Assembly: GCA_947478925.1 (NCBI GenBank)
Contig: CANJXY010000005.1
Location: 1 to 56,570, forward strand
Reading direction: 5' to 3'
Length of the DNA stretch: 56,570 nucleotides
DNA from: Hyphomonadaceae bacterium
GTDB lineage: Bacteria; Pseudomonadota; Alphaproteobacteria; Caulobacterales; Hyphomonadaceae
A program made the translations under genes and the position numbers. Positions 13,851-16,237 of the stretch are shown piece by piece (the first letter of the stretch is position 1; the number at the start of each line of letters is the position of its first letter). The notes under the pieces are model-generated. The model ran no database searches, was not told where the DNA came from, and saw nothing but the letters and a program-made list of their open reading frames with translations.

Positions 13851-14861
13851 TCAGGTTGGCGAGTGAGCCGACGGCGCGATGATCAGGTCGCCGAGCCCCT
13901 GGAACGACCAGTTGTCCCACAGTCCGTAGAGGTAGAGGCCGTAGATCAACAGAAAGATCAGGGCAGTGACGACGCCGACCCTGCGTTTGAGGAACACGAC
14001 CAAGGTGAGCAGCAAGGCCGCGCCGATCATGACCCAATTACTGAACGCGGTAAATTCCGGGCTGATATGAGCGCGGGGGGCCAGGATCGAGACGACCCCG
14101 CCAGCCCCGAGAATGTTGAAGATGTTTGCGCCAATAATGTTGCCCATAGCGACGTCGGACTGTTTACGGACAGCGGCGGCGATGCTCGCGCTGAGTTCGG
14201 GCAGGGATGAACCGACCGCCAGGAGCGTGAGACCTACGATCGTCTCGCTGGCGTGGAGTTCGTGACCGAGCGAGATGCCGCCGTCGACGAGCAGTCGCGA
14301 GCCGAGCGGCAGGCCCACAATGCCAATCAGGATGAGCATGATCATGCGCCACATCGGCGTATGCATCATCTTCAGCTCTTCCTTGGTGTCCTCGCTCTTG
14401 TCGTCGCGGTCGATCGACCAGGCGAGAATGGCGTAGGCGACGAGCGCAATGATGAAGCCGATGCCGACAATCTGCGTCAGGCCGAAATACATCGACACGC
14501 CGATCCATACGGCCGTGCAAGCCAGCATGAAGAACGCAGTGATGCGCATCCGGGGCGCATCGGTGGTGATCGGAAAAATCAGGGCAGGCAGTGCGAGCAC
14601 CAGAAGAATGTTCGCGATGTTCGAGCCGATGATGTTGCCGTGAGCGAGACCAGCGCTGCCCGTGGTGGCCGCCTGCGCCGAAATCAGGAATTCGGGCAGC
14701 GAGGTGCCGAAGCCGACGATGACGATGCCGACCAGAAGGGGGGAGACATTTGCCTTGTAGGCGGCCGAGAGCGCGCCGCGAACGAGGCAGTCTGCCGAAT
14801 AGATCAGGACCGCGAAGCCCATGACCAGAAAAACGATGGGCCCTATGAGCATGTCAGACAT
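13851..14861 (-). CDS. Calcium/sodium (CaCA-type) antiporter
   Basis: A 336-residue polytopic protein of about ten membrane segments with the two inverted alpha-repeats of the Ca2+/cation antiporter family. Repeat 1 is GFGTSLPEFLIS with GNIIGSNIANILL; repeat 2 is AVGSSLPELSASI with GNIIGANIFNILG. The Glu in each SLPE is an ion ligand. A short acidic or basic loop (DRDDKSEDTKEE) separates the halves. It resembles YrbG-type exchangers, which move Ca2+ (or K+/Na+) against Na+ or H+. GGGGGAGG precedes the ATG. A 26-residue membrane protein is encoded 44 bp upstream on the same strand, probably in the same transcript. Confidence 0.93.
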   Translation of the reverse strand: MSDMLIGPIVFLVMGFAVLIYSADCLVRGALSAAYKANVSPLLVGIVIVGFGTSLPEFLISAQAATTGSAGLAHGNIIGSNIANILLVLALPALIFPITTDAPRMRITAFFMLACTAVWIGVSMYFGLTQIVGIGFIIALVAYAILAWSIDRDDKSEDTKEELKMMHTPMWRMIMLILIGIVGLPLGSRLLVDGGISLGHELHASETIVGLTLLAVGSSLPELSASIAAAVRKQSDVAMGNIIGANIFNILGAGGVVSILAPRAHISPEFTAFSNWVMIGAALLLTLVVFLKRRVGVVTALIFLLIYGLYLYGLWDNWSFQGLGDLIIAPSAHSPT

Positions 14862-14905: not shown

Positions 14906-14986
14906 CTAGTCGATACGACGGTATTCAAGCAGGTTGAGCGCGCCGAAAACCACAACTACTGCAACGATAGCCCACACAGCCGCCAC
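14906..14986 (-). CDS. 26-residue membrane microprotein ahead of antiporter
   Basis: Starts at GTG (14984-14986), with a perfect AAGGAG 6 nt upstream (14993-14998 on the reverse strand). The product AAVWAIVAVVVVFGAL, then NLLEYRRID after the initiator, is one hydrophobic helix of about 17 residues with a charged C-terminal tail, the usual design of a regulatory or assembly microprotein in the inner membrane. It lies 44 bp upstream of the antiporter on the same strand. The ideal Shine-Dalgarno and amphipathic end argue for a real gene, but a 27-codon ORF can arise by chance and homologues would need to be found. Confidence 0.6.
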   Translation of the reverse strand: MAAVWAIVAVVVVFGALNLLEYRRID

Positions 14987-15077
14987 GAGATGCTCCTTCC
15001 GATCAACAAGATTACAGGACTATGCCCGTCGTTACCTGTTTCCGACAACCCTCCCCTCCCTACAGGGCTCCCCCCGC

Positions 15078-15539
15078 ATGAGAAAGCCCACGTTTCGTGA
15101 CCGTGTCTTTCAGGTCTGGTTCCGCCTGCGGCGGTCCGCCACGCTGGGGGTCAGGGGAATCGTCGAGGATGACCATGGCCGGGTGCTGCTGGTTCGCCAC
15201 ACCTACACGCCGGGGTGGCACTTCCCAGGAGGGGGTGTCGAGAAGCTGGAGACGTGCGCGCTCTCCATGCAGCGGGAATTGTTAGAAGAAGCAGGAATCG
15301 AGGCCAAGACCGAGGATATCGAGCTGATTTCGGTTCACGCGAACCAGGCCTTCTTCCCCAATGATCACGTGCTGGTCTACCGAATTGCGAGATGGTCGCA
15401 GGGTGCAGCGACCAGCCGGGGGGAGATTGCCGAGGTGAGGTTTGTCGATCCCCAGAACCCGCCGGAAGGCGTTTCCCCCGGAACACGCCGCCGGCTGGGT
15501 GAGTTGTTTGGCGGCAAGACACGCTGCGAACTCTGGTGA
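15078..15539 (+). CDS. NUDIX hydrolase
   Basis: A 153-residue NUDIX protein with a perfect Nudix box: GGVEKLE, seven residues, then RELLEEAGI (Gx5Ex7REUxEExGU). It starts MRKPTFRDRVFQVWFRLRRS, a form common to alphaproteobacterial NUDIX enzymes, followed by LGVRGIVED. NUDIX enzymes hydrolyse nucleoside diphosphates linked to another moiety (for example ADP-ribose, NADH, dNTP). The ATG at 15078 has AGGG upstream; the ORF extends to 14934, but that part overlaps the microprotein gene on the other strand. Substrate not predictable. Confidence 0.88.
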   Translation: MRKPTFRDRVFQVWFRLRRSATLGVRGIVEDDHGRVLLVRHTYTPGWHFPGGGVEKLETCALSMQRELLEEAGIEAKTEDIELISVHANQAFFPNDHVLVYRIARWSQGAATSRGEIAEVRFVDPQNPPEGVSPGTRRRLGELFGGKTRCELW

Positions 15540-15643
15540 TATCCCTGATCAGAAGGTGCCAAGACCCCGTTTTGATCGCGGGTTAGCCATTGATTTGCAG
15601 TAATGTTTGGTCATCACTGCCGGCCAGGCGGACGGAGGACGAC

Positions 15644-16237
15644 ATGCAGCTGGCCAGAATGATCGCGCTCGTCGCGGCCGCGTCCACCCTGCTTGTGGCT
15701 TGCGGAGGCCCCGAAACTGCGAACGGGCCGAATGCGACGAGTGGCGCGCTGAAGGGCGACGACGCCCTGATCGCGGCAGCACAAAAAATCAGCGATGCAA
15801 TCGGCGGATGCGCGCCGGCGGATGCAACAGCCGAGTCCAAAGTCGTCGGGCTCGAGGCGGGCGCAATCGTGATGATCGCCTGTAGCCAGGGCAGCGCGTT
15901 CTCATCGCATCGCATCTTCATCGCGCGCGCATCTGCGGCGCCGAGACTGTTGTCCCTGCCCGACTATAATGCGAGCGGCTGGTTTGCGAGCGACCTGGCG
16001 CCGATGGCGGAGCTCGATGCTGGCACTGGCGTCCTGACCACGCTGCGCAAGACCGGCGGCAAGGATGGCTGCGGGTCTGAGGGCCGCTATCTGTGGGATG
16101 GGGCGCAGTTCGTGCTGCAGGAAATGCGCTGGCAGTCGTGCGATGATCCGAGCTTGAAGGGCCCCCCCTTCCCGGTCATCTGGCCGACGCAACTTGGAGC
16201 GGCGGTCGACCCTAACGGGGCTACGCCTGCGCCGTAA
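15644..16237 (+). CDS. DUF1176-like lipoprotein
   Basis: A 197-residue protein with a lipobox: MIALVAAASTLLVAC, lipidated Cys20, then GG, so it is anchored in a membrane after signal peptidase II. The rest contains GCAPADATAES, PLPDYNASG-type loops, GKDGCGSEGRYLWDG and FVLQEMRWQSCDD, which resembles the end of DUF1176 proteins; its four or five Cys may pair in the periplasm. GGACGGAGGACGAC precedes the ATG, an unusually strong ribosome-binding site. Function unknown. Confidence 0.7.
   Translation: MQLARMIALVAAASTLLVACGGPETANGPNATSGALKGDDALIAAAQKISDAIGGCAPADATAESKVVGLEAGAIVMIACSQGSAFSSHRIFIARASAAPRLLSLPDYNASGWFASDLAPMAELDAGTGVLTTLRKTGGKDGCGSEGRYLWDGAQFVLQEMRWQSCDDPSLKGPPFPVIWPTQLGAAVDPNGATPAP

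Follow-up and report, generated by a model that had tools for sequence, protein, structure and literature searches.

The window analysed here, a 56,570-nucleotide stretch of DNA from a Hyphomonadaceae bacterium, carries a very short open reading frame (ORF) directly ahead of a calcium/sodium antiporter gene. Gene finders tend to skip ORFs as short as 26 codons. The features at the locus are the following.

14906..14986, minus strand: small gene, an ORF of 26 codons, assigned from its sequence together with conservation in 102/105 family genomes and purifying selection
14993..14998, minus strand: Shine-Dalgarno motif AAGGAG, recognised by eye, with a 6-nt spacer to the GTG of the small ORF
13851..14861, minus strand: calcium/sodium antiporter (PF01699, TIGR00367), 44 bp downstream of the small ORF
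15078..15539, plus strand: divergent NUDIX hydrolase (PF00293, 7.1e-18), with a putative start at 15078

The small ORF starts with GTG at 14986-14984, encodes the 26 codons of VAAVWAIVAVVVVFGALNLLEYRRID and closes with a TAG ending at 14906; the 44-bp spacer (14905-14862) then leads to the antiporter ATG at 14861. The antiporter matches PF01699 at 8e-52 and lies above the TIGR00367 cut-off (196.7 bits vs 179.65), and the divergent NUDIX gene begins approximately 90 bp upstream of the small ORF. At 15590-16237 on the plus strand there is also an ORF resembling a lipoprotein, whose match to DUF1176 exceeds the cut-off (3.8e-11). The hydropathy of the small protein reaches a maximum of 2.7 (17-residue window), which predicts one transmembrane helix, and its C-terminus reads LNLLEYRRID-stop. 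A first-pass annotation had described a GTG ORF with an AAGGAG at a 6-nt spacing, 44 bp before the antiporter and on the same strand, without naming that strand as minus, and each of these elements was read in the sequence. Its view of the ORF as a one-helix gene of the unannotated type also held, as the gene is conserved and has a ribosome-binding site.

By reading loci, together with the sequence upstream of antiporters, we found an intact small ORF in 102/105 Hyphomonadaceae genomes, those without it being G010 and G013 (73 and 77% complete) and G045 (90%). The 26-residue query had matched 97/105 genomes at E<=10, with some of these matches false and some true carriers missed, and the regions upstream of antiporters were inspected in genomes missed by this first search. 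The gene is mostly single-copy and syntenic in the family, starting with ATG in 94/102 genomes and with GTG in 8/102. AGGAGG is matched at 4/6 places or more upstream of the gene in 85 of 102 genomes, compared with 28% of random places, a figure that is not independent because the start codons were picked partly by Shine-Dalgarno score.

Within the window's genus, the frame of the small gene is 77% pairwise identical and stop-free in 13/13 genomes, compared with 41-43% identity and stops in 5-7 of 13 for four shifted registers; because ORFs were extracted with a pattern that required L, N, one acidic and one basic residue and a terminal D, agreement at those positions is in part built into this comparison. 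Third codon positions account for 1050/1575 of the differences, and pN/pS is 0.239 over 78 pairs; this value and the two further pN/pS values below are affected by a nearly saturated pS and by non-independence among the pooled pairs. The C-terminus is fixed in the family as LNxxExxRxD-stop, and N18, R24 and D26 do not vary among 49 rows selected from several families, with the sequences from outside Hyphomonadaceae having been found by profile, without that pattern. A chance ORF is ruled out by the presence across the family and by the conserved frame set against the shifted registers. Judged on sequence, the 26-residue ORF is a genuine gene, and with fewer than 50 residues, one hydrophobic helix and conservation at the protein level its product has the features of a single-pass microprotein.

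No match to Pfam or NCBIfam passed the curated cut-offs, the best E-value among 38 members being 0.014, with one to three members matching per family, and these scans rule out a known protein family. A subunit in a solved structure is likewise ruled out by a PDB sequence search that returned nothing convincing (best E 0.12, over 13 residues of a plant channel), and a structured RNA by the lack of any Rfam match at E<=1 for the small-gene region. KdpF, a helix of about 29 residues encoded directly before a cation transporter, is like the small gene in size, helix and place; the comparison between them is that of the Pfam and NCBIfam scans, where KdpF was not among the matches reported. CydX is a small, single-helix subunit of cytochrome bd oxidase, widespread in Proteobacteria (PMC4325964); it resembles the small protein in size, single helix and conservation with a large membrane complex, but it is bound to cydAB operons, whereas the small gene switches neighbours. 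CydX models gave no match at E<=1, and there was one weak CydH match (0.074, in 1/38 members). MgtS, MgtU, MgtR and AcrZ, transporter-binding small proteins of 28-49 residues according to PMC10710835, have small size in common with our protein, but the small gene persists without the antiporter; no sequence match between them and the small protein was found. Small one-helix accessory proteins are thus an already known kind, and the present family, as far as sequence comparison goes, matches no curated model that we scanned.

The antiporter is the next gene downstream, on the same strand, in 90/102 family genomes with the small gene. The gap is mostly 9-22 nt, and falls within 9-61 nt in 82 of 83 estimated cases. 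Among 71 named loci, which overlap the species of the 102-genome set, 62 have the antiporter downstream, and in the remaining nine a short-chain dehydrogenase follows after 37-232 nt. The absence of conservation in relatives that would have told against the first-pass annotation did not occur; conservation beside the antiporter was found. In a tree of 65 antiporter rows, from which the remaining antiporter fragment of genome G015 was left out, one branch with 100/100 support split 42 adjacent antiporters from 23 others. No case of the adjacent clade without the small gene was seen among the family genomes examined.

The small gene is kept without an adjacent antiporter in 12/102 family genomes. 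Eleven belong to genus g3, most of whose named relatives are Henriciella, and the twelfth is G015, from genus g2. In the seven antiporter-less loci that were read directly (six from g3, plus G015), the dehydrogenase comes next. The 11 g3 genomes retain other antiporters, of a different clade. Because the other two g2 genomes retain the adjacent antiporter and G015 does not, it was probably lost at least twice. The small gene has a pN/pS of 0.143 in 11 genomes of one genus without the neighbouring antiporter (55 pairs) and of 0.279 in 17 relatives keeping it (136 pairs).

Elsewhere in the order, the downstream neighbour varies. The antiporter is present at 9/11 small-gene loci of f4, a family equated by eye with Maricaulaceae from named records (as f1 was with Hyphomonadaceae), the dehydrogenase at 2/2 in f2 and 1/6 in f3, and neither of them at 5/6 in f3. 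A divergent NUDIX gene lies less than 300 nt upstream of the small gene at 68/102 loci in Hyphomonadaceae (f1), 5/6 in f3 and 6/11 in f4, and a divergent NUDIX is also found at 1/3 f2 loci; within the order it is seen whatever gene stands downstream, and it occurs at 0/25 loci on the ctaA side described below. At the f3 loci L200-L204 the small gene is flanked on one side by a divergent NUDIX and on the other by a hybrid histidine kinase in convergent orientation, and a gene of the beta-lactamase family lies farther out on the upstream side. None of the neighbours, be it antiporter, dehydrogenase, NUDIX or ctaA, accompanies the small gene everywhere.

The family profile matched 289/398 genomes of the order at E<=0.1, the weakest of which are not credible, and 38/385 genomes of the class, reaching f8, outside the order, at E of about 1e-8. 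With a broader profile, 32/372 class genomes matched at E<=0.02. Six of these (G410, G508, G552, G620, G670 and G750) were set aside as partial, containing a stop or lying inside longer frames, which leaves 26 accepted genomes, five of them inside the order and the other 21 spread over nine further families (f8, f14, f23, f54, f59, f95, f120, f125 and f170). G557 (E 0.0055) was retained as a short ORF with a start and neighbourhood as in f23 and a C-terminus without the Arg. Outside the order the distribution is patchy: the class sample of 372 genomes yielded 21 credible carriers there. Named cultured genera carrying it include Hyphomonas, Henriciella and Hirschia, all Hyphomonadaceae. A typical Hyphomonas locus is also found on contigs titled Rhodobacterales, Candidatus Sulfopaludibacter and Acidobacteria (L249, L264, L281 and L282), which are probably mislabelled or contaminated MAGs.

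Outside the order, PF02628 (COX15-CtaA, heme A synthase, ctaA) lies, in varying orientation, within 2 kb of the small gene in 20/21 credible homologues and 8/9 families, often with DUF2842 (PF11003) between the two. The exception, G498 (f95), has no ctaA nearby; it carries uvrC and an antiporter clustering with the adjacent clade. A tRNA-Pro(GGG) ends 46-173 nt upstream of the small gene in 8/20 loci scanned. Within the order, ctaA and DUF2842 are together in 22/27 loci, and the small gene is at 0/27. DUF2842 is likewise a small protein encoded near ctaA, and outside the order its gene is often the neighbour of the small gene, but it has about 70 residues and a different sequence, and unlike the small gene it stays at ctaA in the order. 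We saw no credible case of a genome with the small gene at both a ctaA-side and an order-type locus. Either the small gene moved, or one of the two locations lost it while the other retained it.

Several further observations concern the ctaA region. DUF2842 adjoins ctaA across many alphaproteobacterial families (L207, L175, L291 and L313-L336), and no paper naming it was found in the open-licence library searched. Four f23 loci beside ctaA (L171, L172, L303 and L306) have a divergent C-terminus, QFGSID, without Arg. Genome G655 has two near-equal matches to the small protein (C25:4522, which is L171, and C6:41), one of them beside ctaA; they may be a paralogue or reflect a duplicate assembly.

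These neighbourhoods bear on what the small protein might do. The first-pass annotation had suggested that it modulates the antiporter, and a protein devoted to modulating or stabilising the type-1 Ca2+/Na+ antiporter, binding it laterally as MgtS, MgtU and AcrZ bind their transporters, would account for the close, co-oriented antiporter in most Hyphomonadaceae, in the named loci, in Maricaulaceae and in f95, for the single clade to which all adjacent antiporters belong, and for the lack of that clade without the small gene. The positional link is thus upheld, but modulation as the purpose of the gene is not. A gene for an accessory subunit should occur only where its antiporter does; instead, 12/102 family genomes lost the antiporter and kept the small gene under selection, which is hard to square with a dedicated modulator, and in f2, f3 and the class-level homologues the gene mostly stands beside others. 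We regard such a modulator as improbable. A leader peptide or upstream ORF setting translation of the next gene is suggested by the short distance to the antiporter, but here the amino-acid sequence is conserved and not merely the ORF, the C-terminus is fixed, the downstream gene varies and in f3 and most ctaA-linked loci lies on the opposite strand, and Rfam gave no match, making this very unlikely. Least probable of all is a membrane-depolarising peptide toxin of the type I kind; the protein is small and hydrophobic with a charged tail, as such a toxin would be, but type I toxins are patchy in distribution, whereas nearly all family genomes have this gene, mostly as one copy in a syntenic position. 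The Rfam scan gave no match to an antisense RNA at the small gene.

A role as an accessory protein or assembly factor for CtaA or for the aa3 oxidase, with the gene having left ctaA in the window's order, is a somewhat better prospect than the modulator and still a doubtful one. The vicinity of ctaA in nearly all class-level homologues, usually with DUF2842 in between, speaks for it, as does PF02628 in 26/26 credible class-level small-gene genomes vs 297/372 overall, a contrast confounded by kinship. Against it stand the absence of the small gene from all 27 ctaA loci examined in the order and the case of G110, which has the small gene (E 9.3e-8) and gave no match in a PF02628 search of its genome. 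Because of G110, ctaA is not obligatory for the small gene, and a role confined to CtaA is hard to square with the data. No paper on heme A synthase with a small protein in alphaproteobacterial cytochrome oxidase assembly was found in the open-licence library searched.

We therefore read the helix as serving a common membrane complex, given the loss of the antiporter with the gene kept and the lack of a PF02628 match in G110. Our preferred explanation, which we consider probable, is a translated, vertically inherited, single-copy, 26-residue single-pass inner-membrane microprotein that serves a core membrane complex independently of the antiporter. Its helix (about residues 4-20) would span the inner membrane, with the R/K-R tail predicted by the positive-inside rule to face the cytoplasm, and the fixed Asn18, Arg24 and C-terminal Asp26 may dock the helix on a larger membrane protein complex, for which the small protein would act as an accessory or assembly subunit. 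In Hyphomonadaceae and Maricaulaceae the gene would have been placed, or have stayed, before one antiporter clade, with which it is probably co-transcribed and on which its job would not depend; the conserved arrangement may be no more than a product of shared ancestry. The partner would be a core complex common to these bacteria. Biogenesis of heme A or the aa3 oxidase is the leading but unproven candidate, and a dedicated antiporter modulator is less likely. A fuller history can be offered only tentatively: an ancient alphaproteobacterial protein of 26 residues, missed so far on account of its smallness, would belong to a core respiratory membrane complex as a subunit or as an assembly factor. 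In the ancestor of the order its gene would have moved from the tRNA-Pro/DUF2842/ctaA vicinity to a site before an antiporter, and at least twice the antiporter would later have been lost while the gene stayed.

The invariant Asn, Arg and terminal Asp offer clean sites for point mutants. Adjacency alone can mislead, and the loss of the antiporter in 12 genomes serves as a natural control. The small gene represents a conserved family, outside the family libraries that were scanned, in almost every member of the Hyphomonadaceae, cultured species included.
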